From positions 2,728,001-2,792,000 of the forward strand of contig NZ_JACHND010000001.1 of assembly GCF_014205275.1 (NCBI RefSeq): 64,000 nt of DNA, in the 5' to 3' direction. Position 1 is the first letter of the stretch. The number at the start of each line of letters is the position of its first letter. The notes below the pieces were generated by a model, which saw only the letters and a program-made list of their open reading frames with translations, ran no database searches and had not been told where the DNA came from. A program made the translations under genes and the position numbers. This document shows positions 17,478 to 25,429 of this stretch, piece by piece. This DNA comes from Sphaerisporangium siamense (GTDB lineage: Bacteria > Actinomycetota > Actinomycetes > Streptosporangiales > Streptosporangiaceae).

Positions 17478-17984
17478 TCACTTGTCGTCGTGGTTGTGGT
17501 GCTTCTTGCCGTGGTGGTGATGGTGGTGCTGCGGGTGCCAGCGGCGGTCGTCCCGCCAGAAGTTGTGGTGCCCGCCGTGGTGGTCGTGGTGACCGATGAT
17601 CGCACGGAAGAAGCGGGCCTCGACGACCTTGAAGAAGCAGTTGCGGTGGCCGCCGCCGTGGCTGCGGTGGTGACGGTGGTGCTTCTTGAAGCCCTTGCCG
17701 CCCCAGTCGCCGTCGTGGTCGCCGTCGTGGTCCCAGCCGCCGTGGTGGCCGTGGTGGCCGTGGTGACCGTGGTGGCACTGGCCGCCGCCGAAGCCGCCGC
17801 CGAAGCCACCGAGGCCGCCCCCGAAGCCACCGAAGCCGCCGTCGAGGCCGTCGAAGCCGAAGTTGGTGCCGATGGCGGTGGACGCGTTGGCGCTGGTGGC
17901 GGTGACGGCACCGAGGCCGGCGAGACCGCCGGTCAGCGCCACCGTGACGGCGAGCGTAGCGGCGTATTTCTTGACGTCGGGCAT
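17478..17984 (-). CDS. Secreted Gly/His-rich protein
   Basis: 168 residues. A signal peptide (LAVTVALTGGLAGLGAV, cleavage likely after TSANA near residue 35) is followed by a Gly/Phe-rich stretch (GGFGGFGGGLGGFGGG). A roughly 95-residue region then carries about 30 histidines (HHGHHGHHGHHGG, HHRHHRSHGGGH, QHHHHHHGKKHHNH). A short non-repetitive core, CFFKVVEARFFRAIIGHH, lies inside, with two Cys in the mature protein. The composition suggests binding of Zn, Ni or Cu at the cell surface, or pH-dependent assembly. No homologue is recognised. ATG 17984 has AAGGGGG 7 nt upstream; longer in-frame extensions lack ribosome sites and signal character. The upstream leader contains a stable hairpin and a dyad. 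Confidence 0.8.
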   Translation of the reverse strand: MPDVKKYAATLAVTVALTGGLAGLGAVTATSANASTAIGTNFGFDGLDGGFGGFGGGLGGFGGGFGGGQCHHGHHGHHGHHGGWDHDGDHDGDWGGKGFKKHHRHHRSHGGGHRNCFFKVVEARFFRAIIGHHDHHGGHHNFWRDDRRWHPQHHHHHHGKKHHNHDDK

Positions 17985-18022
17985 TGCGTTTTCCCCCTTG
18001 ACGCATCGGGTTGCCCAGCGGA

Positions 18023-18051
18023 GGCATTTCCCCTTTATCGAGGGAAATGCC
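18023..18051 (-). promoter_or_regulatory. Leader hairpin of the His-rich gene
   Basis: GGCATTTCCC (18023-18032) pairs with GGGAAATGCC (18042-18051), a perfect 10-bp stem with a 9-nt loop. It lies 38 nt upstream of the ATG at 17984 on the transcript side. An mRNA stabiliser, attenuator or binding site are all possible. Confidence 0.45.
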
Positions 18052-18165
18052 GGGGCGACTCGCTGTGAGTCTTCCCAGTTGTGTTGTTTTCCGAGGAGCA
18101 CGTATGACAAACGGTGATCGCCACCTTTTGGCCGCTACTTAACCTCTCCTTATGTCTTTCAGTTT

Positions 18166-20742: not shown

Positions 20743-21462
20743 GTGAGCGAGTCGCGCGCCTGGCCCCCGTTCGCGATCATCTCGGCGTTGACGCTGATCT
20801 GCGCCGTCGTCGCCGGCGTCACCGGCGGGGCGGCCGGCGCGGAGCTCACCCGGGGCCCGAGCGCGGCCGAGGTCCGCCAGGCGTCCGCGGAGGAGATGGC
20901 CCGCCGCTGGCGCACCTGGCCCGCGGGCAAGGTCTTCCCCGCGCTGCTGCCGTACATCGCCGAGCAGGGCGGCGAGGAGAAGGCCCGCAGGGTCGGCATC
21001 TCCTCCCGCACCGACTGCGCGGCCGCCGTGGACGTCGCCCTGCGGGCCGCGCTCAGGGCGGCGGGCTGCCGGGCCGTCCTCAGGGCGACCTACCTGGACG
21101 CGCTGCAGGGCGTCGTGGTCACGATCGGCGTCGCCGCCTTCCCCGACCAGGCGTCCGCGCTGGCCGCGAGGACGGCGTTCCCCAAGGCGGGCAGGCCCTC
21201 GCCCGGCCTGCGCGCGCTGGCCTTCCCGCAGACCGTGACCGACCGCTTCACCGCCGCCGCCCGCCAGACCTCCTCGCTGGCGCAGGCCGGGCCCTACCTC
21301 GTGCTCACCACCGCGGGCCAGGTGGACGGCAGGCCCGCGCGCTCGGTGGGCCGGCAGCGCTCCACGATCTTCACGTTCGCCTCCGACCTGGAGGAACGCG
21401 TCCTGACCGCGCTCGCCACGCCCGCCAGGCCGGACTGCGCGGGCAAGGACTGGCAGTGCTGA
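20743..21462 (+). CDS. Membrane-anchored partner protein, cassette copy 1
   Basis: 239 residues. One N-terminal membrane helix (about 10-32, FAIISALTLICAVVAGVTGG) with the rest presumably outside. Clearly paralogous to the protein at 22808-23716. Shared strings include RRWRTWPAGKVFPA versus RRWHTWPADRVFPA, VLRATYLD versus MLRATYVD, FPQTVTDRF versus FPGTVTESF, and GPYLVLTTAG versus GPYIVFTTAG. Cysteine positions are conserved: one pair 15 residues apart and a second at the extreme C-terminus (CAGKDWQC), suggesting two disulfides. No known family recognised. GTG 20743 has GGGAGG 8 nt upstream. The stop codon lies inside the next gene's start (GTGCTGA). Probably a chaperone, inhibitor or scaffold for the coupled protease. 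Confidence 0.82.
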   Translation: MSESRAWPPFAIISALTLICAVVAGVTGGAAGAELTRGPSAAEVRQASAEEMARRWRTWPAGKVFPALLPYIAEQGGEEKARRVGISSRTDCAAAVDVALRAALRAAGCRAVLRATYLDALQGVVVTIGVAAFPDQASALAARTAFPKAGRPSPGLRALAFPQTVTDRFTAAARQTSSLAQAGPYLVLTTAGQVDGRPARSVGRQRSTIFTFASDLEERVLTALATPARPDCAGKDWQC

Positions 21463-22733
21463 CCCCGCGTGCCGCCCGTGATCGCCGCGCGGCGCGGGTC
21501 CTGGCCGTGACCGCCCTGGTCGCCTCGCTCGCCGTCCCCGCCGTCCCGGCGCGGGCCGACCAGGTGCGCGGCAGCCAGGCGCAGGTGCTGCGGACCCTCG
21601 GCCTCGACGCCGCCTGGCGGATCACCCGGGGCGCCGGGGCGAAGGTCGCGGTGCTCGACTCCGGCGTGGACCCCCGCCACCACGACCTGGCCGGGTCGGT
21701 GGTCACCGGCCCGGACCTCACCAAGGGCGCCAACCCGCGCGGCGTCGCCCCGAGCCGCCTGCACGGCACCTACATGGCCTCGCTCATCGCCGGCCACGGG
21801 CACGGGCCGGGCGGCGCCGACGGCGTGATCGGCGTCGCGCCCGCGGCCAAGGTGCTGTCGGTGCGGGTCATCCTGGAGGACGACGAGCCGGGGTTCCGCG
21901 ACTTCAACTCCGAGGCCCGGTTCGAGAACGTCGTCGCGCGCGGCATCCGCTACGCCGTCGACCAGGGCGTGGACGTCATCAACCTCTCTATCAGCAAGGA
22001 CCAGCCGACCCGGCAGGAGCGCGCCGCGATCCGGTACGCGGTGTCCAAGGGCGTGGTGCTGGTCGCGGCGGCGGGGAACGACGGGGCGGGCCGCGTGACC
22101 GGGCCGTACTCCTACCCGGCGTCGCTGCCCGGGGTGATCTCGGTGGCCGCCGCCGACCGGGGCCTGCGCAAGGCGTCGTTCTCCAACCGCAACTCGCTGG
22201 TCCTGGTGGCGGCGCCGGGGGTGGACATCTACGGGGCCGGGCCGGGGGACCAGTACTGGGTGGGGCGCGGGACGTCGCAGGCCACGGCGCTCGTCTCCGG
22301 AGTCGCCGCGCTGATAAAGGCGAAATATCCGCGCATGACCCCGGCACTGGTCACCCAGGCGCTCACCACCGGCGTCGTCCGCCACCCGCCCCAGGGGTAC
22401 GACCCGGGAACCGGCTTCGGCGTGGTCAACGCGGCGCGCGCCCTGGCCGAGGCCGCCCGGCTGTCCCGGCACAAGCACACCGCCGCCGGCCCCGGCGTCC
22501 AGAACCCCGACCTGCCGGTGGGCGCGGGCGGACGGGCCGCCGAGCCCGTCCGGGTCGTGCGCAGGGACTCGCACATGATCGCCGTGTACGGGGGAGTGGC
22601 GGCCGCGGCCGGCGCGCTCGCGTGCACGAGCCTCACCGCGCTGGTGATCCTCGTCCGGCGGGGCAGGCGGCGCCGCCGGCGCGAGGAGGCGTCCCACCCG
22701 CCCGCGCCCTCGTGGGAACGGACGCCGACCTGA
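21456..22733 (+). CDS. Mycosin-like S8 serine protease, cassette copy 1
   Basis: 425 residues. Signal peptide (ARVLAVTALVASLAVPAVPA), subtilisin catalytic domain and a C-terminal membrane helix (IAVYGGVAAAAGALACTSLT) followed by a basic RRGRRRRRR tail: the layout of type VII secretion mycosins. Triad: Asp in VAVLDSGVD (about 67), His in LHGTYMAS (about 103), Ser in GRGTSQATAL (about 273). The oxyanion Asn lies in AAAGNDG. The active site would face outside. No other ESX genes (EccB-E, WXG100) are in the window, so a T7SS role is only an analogy. Overlaps the partner gene by 7 nt. Confidence 0.9.
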   Translation: MLTPRAARDRRAARVLAVTALVASLAVPAVPARADQVRGSQAQVLRTLGLDAAWRITRGAGAKVAVLDSGVDPRHHDLAGSVVTGPDLTKGANPRGVAPSRLHGTYMASLIAGHGHGPGGADGVIGVAPAAKVLSVRVILEDDEPGFRDFNSEARFENVVARGIRYAVDQGVDVINLSISKDQPTRQERAAIRYAVSKGVVLVAAAGNDGAGRVTGPYSYPASLPGVISVAAADRGLRKASFSNRNSLVLVAAPGVDIYGAGPGDQYWVGRGTSQATALVSGVAALIKAKYPRMTPALVTQALTTGVVRHPPQGYDPGTGFGVVNAARALAEAARLSRHKHTAAGPGVQNPDLPVGAGGRAAEPVRVVRRDSHMIAVYGGVAAAAGALACTSLTALVILVRRGRRRRRREEASHPPAPSWERTPT

Positions 22734-22807
22734 CGGAGGCGGGAACACGACAGGTGGCGAAGGCCCATGCGAGACGCCGGAAGCGGGCACCGACGTAGCA
22801 TCGGGGT

Positions 22808-23716
22808 ATGTCGCCTGAAGAGCCACGGGCGCGGCCGGCGCCCTGGCCCCCGCGTGGAAGAGGCGCGTCCTTCGGCGGGCGGCTCTCCTCGGGCGGCGGC
22901 CCCTCCCCGTACGGGCCCGCGCGCCCCTGGGTCGGCTCCCGCACGCGGGCCGCGAGCCTTCAGGCGACGCGGGAACGCGTCGAACTCGAACGCGGAGTCC
23001 GCTTCCGCTCCCTCTTCCTGCTGATCATGGGCACGCTGCTCGTGGTCGCGGCGACCGACGTGCTGCTCGGCGCGGTCGGCGTCCTGCACGAGACCCGGTC
23101 CCGCCCGCTCACGCCCGCCGAGCGCGCCCGGTACGCCGAGGCGGACGTCGCGCGGCGCTGGCACACCTGGCCGGCCGACCGGGTGTTCCCCGCCCAGGTC
23201 GCCTACGTCGGCCTGGCCCGGGTGCGGCAGTACGCCAAGCGGGTCGGCATCGCCGCGGAGGCCCCGTGCGCCTCGGTCGTGGACGGCTCCGTCGGCGCGG
23301 TGCTGCGGCAGCGCGGCTGCCGCACGATGTTGCGGGCCACCTACGTGGACCAGACCGCCGCGTTCGTGGTCACCGTGGGGGTCGCCGTGCTCGCGGACGA
23401 GGACACGCGGGTGCGCGCGGCGGGCGAGCTGCCGGTCGACGACCGGGTGGGCGTGCGCCCGGTGGCCTTCCCCGGAACGGTGACCGAGTCGTTCGGCGCC
23501 GCGCAGCGCCAGCGCACGGGCTGGGTGGGCGCCGGGCCGTACATCGTCTTCACCACCGCCGGGTACGCCGACGGCCGCACCCGCGAGGCGATCGCCCGCG
23601 AAGAGATCACCCACAGCGAGCTGTGGCCGACGGCCCAGTCCATCGCCGGCCACATCGGACGCGGCCTGTCCGCGCCCCCGGAGATCCCCCGCTGCACCCA
23701 GGGGAACGTGTGTTGA
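22808..23716 (+). CDS. Membrane-anchored partner protein, cassette copy 2
   Basis: 302 residues. Paralogue of the 20743 protein with an extra cytoplasmic N-terminus of about 60 Pro/Gly/Arg-rich residues before the membrane helix (SLFLLIMGTLLVVAATDVLL, about 68-88). The external domain keeps the same blocks and cysteines: C near EAPCASVV, C in RGCRTMLR, and a C-terminal pair CTQGNVC. It ends exactly at Cys, as copy 1 does. ATG 22808 has only a weak GGGG upstream, so it may depend on readthrough from the first cassette 74 bp before. Its stop overlaps the next start as GTGTTGA. Confidence 0.82.
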   Translation: MSPEEPRARPAPWPPRGRGASFGGRLSSGGGPSPYGPARPWVGSRTRAASLQATRERVELERGVRFRSLFLLIMGTLLVVAATDVLLGAVGVLHETRSRPLTPAERARYAEADVARRWHTWPADRVFPAQVAYVGLARVRQYAKRVGIAAEAPCASVVDGSVGAVLRQRGCRTMLRATYVDQTAAFVVTVGVAVLADEDTRVRAAGELPVDDRVGVRPVAFPGTVTESFGAAQRQRTGWVGAGPYIVFTTAGYADGRTREAIAREEITHSELWPTAQSIAGHIGRGLSAPPEIPRCTQGNVC

Positions 23717-24930
23717 GCCGCGGGCGGCGCCTGCGCGCGGTGGCGGCGGCGGGCGCGTCGCTGCTGCTCACGGGCATGCCGTTCACGCCCGCCGCGGCGG
23801 ACGTCTCGCGCGCGCCCGCCGTCCTGGAGGACGTGCGCGACGCGCAGCGCTGGGTGCTGGACGCGCTGAACGCCGAGAAGGCGTGGCAGGTCACGCGGGG
23901 CGCCGGCGTCACGGTCGCGGTGGTCGACAGCGCCGTGGACGCCGGCGTGCCCGAGCTGCGGGGCAAGGTCGTGACCGGGCCGGACCTGCGCGACGACGCC
24001 TACGACGGCAGGCCGCCGCCGGTCGGCGTGCACGGGACGGCGATGGCCTCGCTGATCGCCGGCTCCGGCCGGGACGGCGGGCTGGCCGGGCTCGCGCCCG
24101 AGGCGGCCGTCCTGTCGATCCCGGTGCTCAACGACCGGCCCGAGTACCGCCTGGTCGAGCCGGACAACGGCATCGGACCGCCCGTCGAGACCCCGCTCTC
24201 GCGCGCCCTGCGCTACGCGACCGACAACGGCGCGCGGGTGATCAGCATGTCGCTCGGCGGGTACGGCCCGCTGCGCGCCGACCGCCAGGCCGTGGCGTAC
24301 GCGCTGGAGCGGGGCGTGGTGCTGGTGGCGGCCGTGGGCAACGACGGCGACTCGCGCGCCGCCGAGCGGTACGGCACCTCGTTCTGGAGCTTCCCCGCGG
24401 GGTTCGCCGGCGTGATCGGCGTGGCCGCGGTGGACCGTCTCGGCAAGCACGCCGCGTTCAGCAGCGACAACCTGTCGGTGCTGGTGGGGGCGCCGGGGGT
24501 GGCGGTTCCCGCGGCGAAGGCCGGCGGCGGGTACATCTCGATCGAGGGCAGCAGCGTGTCGACGGCCCTGGTCGCCGGGGTCGCCGCCCTGATCAAGGCG
24601 AAGTACCCCCAGCTCAGGCCCGAGCTGGTGGCCCGGGCCCTGTCCACGACGACGCGGGGCGCGCCCGCCGGCCGCTACGACGAGAAGATCGGCTTCGGTG
24701 TCGTGGACGCCGCCGCCGCGCTGGCCAGGGCGGGCGAGCTGACGCGCTACCGGTCCGCCGTCCCGGTGCGGGAGGGGCTGCACTTCGGCAAGGGCGTGAC
24801 CGTCTCCGAGCCCGAGCGGCCGGGGCCGGACCCGCTGCGCCTGTGGGTCTACGGGGCCGGGATCGTCCTCGGGCTGGCCGGCTTCGGGGCGGGCGTGGTG
24901 GTGCTGACCCGGCGCGCCGAACGCCGATGA
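23710..24930 (+). CDS. Mycosin-like S8 serine protease, cassette copy 2
   Basis: 406 residues, paralogue of the first protease. Signal peptide (AVAAAGASLLLTGMPFTPAA), catalytic domain and C-terminal membrane helix (YGAGIVLGLAGFGAGVVVL) with a short basic tail. Triad: Asp in VAVVDSAVD (about 74), His in VHGTAMAS (about 107), Ser in EGSSVSTAL (about 281), where the usual GTS is GSS. The shared VAALIKAKYP block follows the catalytic Ser in both copies. GTG 23710 overlaps the partner stop by 7 nt, the same architecture as copy 1, which supports duplication of the pair as a unit. Confidence 0.9.
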   Translation: MLSRGRRLRAVAAAGASLLLTGMPFTPAAADVSRAPAVLEDVRDAQRWVLDALNAEKAWQVTRGAGVTVAVVDSAVDAGVPELRGKVVTGPDLRDDAYDGRPPPVGVHGTAMASLIAGSGRDGGLAGLAPEAAVLSIPVLNDRPEYRLVEPDNGIGPPVETPLSRALRYATDNGARVISMSLGGYGPLRADRQAVAYALERGVVLVAAVGNDGDSRAAERYGTSFWSFPAGFAGVIGVAAVDRLGKHAAFSSDNLSVLVGAPGVAVPAAKAGGGYISIEGSSVSTALVAGVAALIKAKYPQLRPELVARALSTTTRGAPAGRYDEKIGFGVVDAAAALARAGELTRYRSAVPVREGLHFGKGVTVSEPERPGPDPLRLWVYGAGIVLGLAGFGAGVVVLTRRAERR

Positions 24931-25054: not shown

Positions 25055-25429
25055 GTGGGATACGAGTTGCGTGTACAGCGTGAATCGCCGCTCGCCTACG
25101 CCGAGCTCGCGGAGCTGACGGCGTCGGCCGACGCCGGCTTGGAACTGCGGGGCGCCGCCGAGGCCGCCGAGATCGTCGCCAGGCACGGCGACGCCGAGCA
25201 CACCGTCGCCACGTGGGAGGGACGGCTGTACGGCGTGCCGACCTCCGACTGGCACGTCGCCCAGCTCGCCAGGCTCGCCGCGCTGGCCGGCGGTGACCTC
25301 ACCGGTGAGGACGGCGAGGCGTACCGCATCCGCGACGGCATCGTCGAGCAGGTCAACGGCGAGGCCTCCTACGAGTTCGGCAAGCTCGAAGAGATCCTCG
25401 CGGACGGCCCCGCGCCGTGGGCGGCCTGA
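25055..25429 (+). CDS. Conserved hypothetical protein
   Basis: 124 residues, soluble, mixed alpha/beta, acidic. Not assigned to a family. Recognisable pieces are LAYAELAELTASADAGLELR and EIVARHGDAEHTVATWEGRLYG. No signal peptide, metal motif or catalytic set stands out. GTG 25055 is the only start that keeps the whole ordered region; TAGGG lies 10 nt upstream. It precedes the alkyltransferase-like gene by 22 bp on the same strand, so they probably share a transcript. Confidence 0.6.
   Translation: MGYELRVQRESPLAYAELAELTASADAGLELRGAAEAAEIVARHGDAEHTVATWEGRLYGVPTSDWHVAQLARLAALAGGDLTGEDGEAYRIRDGIVEQVNGEASYEFGKLEEILADGPAPWAA

Follow-up and report, generated by a model that had tools for sequence, protein, structure and literature searches.

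Two partner-protease units in tandem

The window, a stretch of 64,000 nucleotides from Sphaerisporangium siamense, carries four genes head to tail on the plus strand, in the order partner 1 (P1), protease 1 (M1), partner 2 (P2) and protease 2 (M2). P1 (20743-21462) encodes a single-pass membrane protein of 239 amino acids with an ectodomain and a cysteine as its last residue. M1 (21456-22733) is a mycosin-like S8 subtilase of 425 amino acids with a signal segment and a C-terminal transmembrane segment. In the second unit, P2 (22808-23716, 302 amino acids) has a Pro/Gly/Arg-rich N-terminal tail, one transmembrane segment, a P1-type ectodomain and a C-terminal cysteine pair, and is followed by another mycosin-like S8 protein, M2 (23710-24930, 406 amino acids). 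The partners share 40% identity over 201 columns (E 6e-41) and the proteases 41% identity over 427 columns (E 3e-71; both E values are for a single comparison). The gene order and these identities bear out the original prediction of a duplicated two-gene unit, and the similarity of the partners is not the weak resemblance that had been named as counting against it. The same 7-nt overlap joins partner end and protease start in both units, as had been described (GTGCTGA at 21456-21462 and GTGTTGA at 23710-23716, plus strand).

A Kyte-Doolittle scan (mean 1.6 or more) finds one hydrophobic segment in each partner (residues 10-28 of P1 and 69-87 of P2), two in M1 (12-30 and 375-393) and one in M2 (382-400). 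The topology proposed earlier therefore holds for both partners, both segments of M1 and the C-terminal anchor of M2, whereas the signal segment of M2 falls below the hydropathy threshold. Both proteases belong to the S8 family (PF00082, E 1.2e-44 for M1 and 2.5e-36 for M2, above the Pfam cut-off) and have the catalytic D/H/N/S residues in place: D68, H103, N208 and S274 are intact in M1, and M2 presents intact DSA, HGT, GND and GSSVS motifs. In this genome, M2 may be no more than another active protease.

An origin in a defence or phage system was considered and rejected. In PADLOC the proteases match a generic subtilase model and, weakly, IetS; in PHROGs they match a protease family. Neither database returns anything for the partners, and the genes around the cassette are conserved. 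Upstream, at 17478-18110 on the minus strand, is an open frame rich in Gly and His whose N-terminal part resembles a signal sequence; it may encode a metal-binding surface protein.

The pair is near-obligate and sits at a conserved locus

An S8 gene lies downstream of 193 of the 195 fetched partner homologues scoring at least 55 bits, a set that comprises the stronger among the matches listed, with 15 repeat loci left out. The profile search proposed originally thus finds the partner preceding an S8 protease almost without exception. The two partners without a following S8 gene are that of L128, which runs into unrelated sequence, and the first partner of L184. The partner is accordingly not widespread without the protease, the condition that had been named as counting against the prediction, with one reservation: a diverged form stands alone in 14 of the 15 matches below 55 bits. 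The exact 7-nt overlap occurs in 167 of the 193 pairs and the same frame offset in 186 (related rows are not independent). This overlap is partly built in, since a partner that ends in Cys followed by TGA offers a start 7 nt before its end (xTG, C/T, TGA).

Within the family, 109 of 120 sampled genomes contain a match to the partner profile at E 1e-10 or better. A sample of the class has 28 matching genomes out of 197 (E 1e-12); 16 lie outside the family, and 15 of these carry a single genus code that we take to be Streptomyces. Only eight of 198 genomes in a sample of the phylum match at E 1e-10, namely the window genome and seven of the presumed Streptomyces code. The full tandem is present in all 12 loci from named genomes.

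The surroundings of the cassette are also shared. Among 48 loci (L067-L114), all 48 have a homologue of a neighbouring protein with ThiF and rhodanese domains (Pfam), presumably MoeZ, and 46 have a homologue of a small neighbour protein that we assume to be alkyltransferase-like. Directly downstream in the window (25055-25429) is a 124-amino-acid gene matching no Pfam family, with a homologue in 45 of the 48 loci. These counts indicate that the cassette sits at a conserved chromosomal locus.

FastTree phylogenies of 196 partners and 192 S8 proteins each separate the first from the second copy by one branch (SH-like support 100 for P1/P2 and 99 for M1/M2). These trees left out partners below 60 bits and S8 rows that scored below 140 bits or were truncated where a sequence stops (L056, L107, the second of L109, L158, L184, L189 and L190). 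The splits and the 40% identity agree with the earlier view that the partners are paralogues, and the parallel pattern indicates that the two-gene unit was duplicated as a whole before the genera of the tandem group diverged. The partner-protease pair is thus near-obligate and old in soil actinobacteria. A single cassette with an active protease also occurs (L178-L180 over 18 kb, and several others), so a second unit is no general requirement. At L056:5726-6923 the cassette has decayed, with the partner split over two frames and a partial S8 match.

An uncatalogued partner family

The partner had been described as belonging to no known family, and neither P1 nor P2 matches a Pfam or NCBIfam model above cut-off. 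Four cysteines of the P1 ectodomain (C92, C109, C232 and C239) are invariant in 26 aligned rows, and the last residue is a cysteine in all 26. The structure model of the ectodomain is mostly confident.

We considered membership in the family of the PknH extracellular domain (PknH_C, PF14032) and did not adopt it. P1 scores 20.3 bits against this model (E 5.6e-4), below the gathering cut-off of 27 bits, and P2 has no PF14032 match in Pfam. In Foldseek, PknH and TiME structures rank first, second, fourth and fifth with weak E values of about 0.09-0.2 (0.086 for the first). An hhalign comparison with 16 PknH_C domains gives a score that is not significant, even with 196 partner rows, and a sequence search of the PDB returns nothing meaningful (best E 0.37). 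Kinship with PknH_C is only a lead.

The listed matches below 55 bits are long Pro-rich proteins that carry a diverged partner outer domain. Fourteen of them, compared as a profile with the partner profile, give a probability of 99.15%. In some genomes of the family this solo form is the only form of the domain (L169, L171-L173). One locus (L051:2859-9753; G000:C1, about 8.452-8.459 Mb) encodes two adjoining Pro-rich proteins of 1009 and 1257 amino acids with the diverged domain at the C-terminus and no cassette S8 gene nearby, and similar neighbouring pairs occur at L060, L062 and L063.

The second protease has often lost its catalytic residues

The four catalytic positions were read off profile alignments and checked via motif windows. 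All four are kept in each of the 56 rows of the M1 clade. The M2 residues, in comparison, are replaced in 24 of the 55 scored tandem loci of relatives, the window genome not being among the 24 (M2 is absent from the scoring at L107, and L109 has no scored M2). Changed M2 copies, here called dead, span 11 genus codes as well as the named genera Microtetraspora, Acrocarpospora and Herbidospora. At two of these loci D and H are kept and Asp replaces both Asn and Ser; three or four of the residues are gone at the remaining 22. A separate clade of 16 further S8 copies is also changed, which brings the total to 40 of the 192 S8 rows in the tree; the S8 proteins of L184 and L190 are changed too and are outside this count.

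In the protease tree the dead M2 copies form one clade of 24. A tree of joined P1 and M1 requires two changes, of which the starred branches force only one. From these phylogenies, catalysis would have been lost once or twice within M2 and separately in the clade of 16, a clade with long branches, of a kind whose joins are often false.

Some loci are more elaborate. At L114:2503-12379 a partner and an active S8 protein are followed by a partner, three changed S8 proteins in a row, which belong to the separate clade of 16, and another partner with an active S8 protein. L119 and L125 carry triple tandem cassettes with the catalytic residues replaced in the third S8 protein. The window genome has 19 S8 matches, and none of them shows a replaced residue where it can be aligned to the cassette profile (four aligned in part, and many scores are low); as a further check, a search by motif recovered those for H and S at 14 of 18 loci. 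At G000:C1:4738738-4749798 there are four S8 matches with open frames of about 1060 amino acids and a spacing of about 3.4 kb.

Possible roles of the partner and of the second protease

One account of the pair is that the partner is only a dedicated folding chaperone or membrane receptor, and that the two cassettes work independently on different substrates. The near-strict pairing and the overlap are what one would expect of such a protein, a dead S8 protein would presumably still need folding and anchoring, and loci with a single active cassette exist. Two features suggest a function beyond chaperoning, however: the partner sits in the membrane with an ectodomain modelled mostly at good confidence, and this domain also turns up in long Pro-rich proteins whose genes have no S8 gene downstream. 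We regard this account as rather unlikely, while giving it real weight.

The proteases could also work in trans, as orphan mycosins, for the cell's ESX (type VII) secretion system. The mycosin model TIGR03921 is the best NCBIfam match of both, structure matches include MycP1, MycP3 and ESX-5 entries, and the genome has one EccB. Both proteases nevertheless fall below the TIGR03921 cut-off of 278.75 bits (263.8 bits for M1 and 219.9 for M2), and the single EccB match (C1:7490561) is 4.7 Mb from the cassette, with another mycosin-like S8 protein, which has no partner, about 30 kb from it. Pfam detects no ESX genes among the six neighbouring open frames of the window, as the original prediction had stated, nor among nine open frames scanned at two Streptomyces-like loci. 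Mycosins are placed in type VII secretion clusters in the available parts of two reports (PMC5994538, PMC1779556). Service to ESX in trans is therefore improbable.

Other accounts turn on how the dead copies are kept. Their dN/dS values range from 0.13 to 0.48 (18 pairs, of which 16 are M2 copies and two come from the other clade; the pairs share genomes and are not independent), compared with 0.13-0.34 for M1 in matching pairs and 0.06-0.45 for the partner 2 proteins beside dead copies. All 38 dead rows, which include two repeats, have a C-terminal hydrophobic segment, compared with 123 of the 134 active rows, and each of the eight dead copies tested scores above the Pfam cut-off for S8. The structure model of one dead copy (pLDDT 78.9) resembles subtilisins (E 1e-19) and MycP1 (4e-19). 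The dead copies thus keep their frame, anchor and partner, and in one copy the subtilase fold is predicted to be kept.

The earlier suggestion that the partner is an inhibitor, or a related role as guard of its protease, would fit the pairing and the overlap but is not supported by these observations: partner 2 is equally conserved, under purifying selection, beside dead M2 copies that leave nothing to inhibit. It is therefore not there merely to restrain proteolysis. We find an inhibitor role very improbable overall, and for the second unit of genera with a dead M2 it is already unlikely. A chaperone for folding or assembly, an adaptor for substrates and a sensor subunit are still candidate roles for the partner. 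That the dead copies are pseudogenes being lost is hardly credible: many different residues replace the catalytic ones and several pairs show faster change in the dead copy, but the open frames, anchor, partner and overlap are all kept, dN/dS is well below 1, and a clade of 22 dead rows covers ten genus codes.

A putative surface complex of active and inactive subtilases

A second protease that is often dead yet kept suggests that the set is probably a surface complex, rather than two plain enzymes. We propose that each partner would be co-translated with its own S8 protein, that the two would assemble on the outer side of the membrane, and that both units may join in one heteromeric, membrane-anchored assembly. 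M1 would be its conserved active subtilase. M2 would be a paralogous subunit with a structural or regulatory role that does not need catalysis, free to become a scaffold or sensor, and might regulate M1. MycP1 and the CspA and CspC proteins, compared below, offer precedents for a subtilase that acts without cutting. The partner ectodomain would be the constant subunit that holds, positions or gates the S8 protein, and it may bind a ligand or substrate. For a co-translated assembly of this composition, with an active M1, a paralogous M2 and a partner for each, we see the chances as evenly balanced.

Evolutionary distances weakly support a complex. Across 54 loci, M1 and M2 distances covary when the partners are controlled for (partial r 0.58), although this may reflect only their shared fold. 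The corresponding values are 0.35 for P1-M1 and 0.13 for P2-M2, compared with 0.14 and 0.19 for the crossed pairs P2-M1 and P1-M2. Because P2-M2 is no larger than the crossed pairs, the distances show no cognate pairing within unit 2, and we rejected distance covariation as proof of such pairing.

More broadly, the cassette may represent an extracytoplasmic machine that has so far gone undescribed in filamentous actinobacteria. An active mycosin-like protease and a paralogous pseudoprotease, each translationally coupled to its own member of an uncatalogued family of single-pass ectodomain proteins, would together serve as a surface sensor or scaffold, and the further subunit would have abandoned catalysis in at least two separate lineages of copies. 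We hold this reading tentatively, with a probability of roughly 0.45. The analysis provides a near-obligate partner family for a group of mycosin-like proteases encoded, where examined, away from ESX loci, and at a single fixed locus these proteases grade naturally from active to dead.

Comparison with known systems

Like the partner, the PknH extracellular domain (PF14032) and TiME combine one transmembrane segment with a cysteine-containing outer domain. Their cysteine layout differs, however, and the cassette has no kinase.

The ESX mycosin MycP (TIGR03921) shares with M1 and M2 the S8 fold, the signal segment and the C-terminal transmembrane anchor. In contrast, M1 and M2 score below its cut-off, ESX genes were not found near them, and they have an upstream partner. 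The accessible part of one report describes mycosins as tail-anchored extracellular proteins in which twin arginines are rare (PMC10924467), a description that fits the anchor of the cassette proteases. In the part available of another, MycP is essential for ESX secretion while the protease activity of MycP1 is dispensable (PMC5082899). With the cassette, a non-cutting role of mycosin-like proteins becomes testable in soil bacteria.

Our literature search, which partly covered titles and the beginnings of abstracts, returned nothing on mycosin pseudoproteases or on pseudoproteases in Streptosporangiales, and for subtilisin-like pseudoproteases in actinobacteria only work on spore formation surfaced in the portions available. 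Pairs of active and pseudo-subtilases are already known; the literature searched did not yield this membrane form, which has a partner family of its own. The Csp proteins act in the spore, and we know of no such membrane partner for them. Against the CspBA and CspC models of NCBIfam, whose cut-offs are 675 bits or higher, M1 and M2 score no more than 17.4 bits. The likeness lies in the arrangement: the Csp germination subtilases of Clostridioides and its kin place active beside dead subtilisin-like proteins, and the available part of one report describes CspB as predicted to be active, with the adjoining CspA and CspC lacking a full triad and being regulatory (PMC6199464). A comparable arrangement, an active copy beside a dead, conserved one, is found in 24 of the 55 scored tandem loci of relatives, the window genome retaining the catalytic residues of both proteases.
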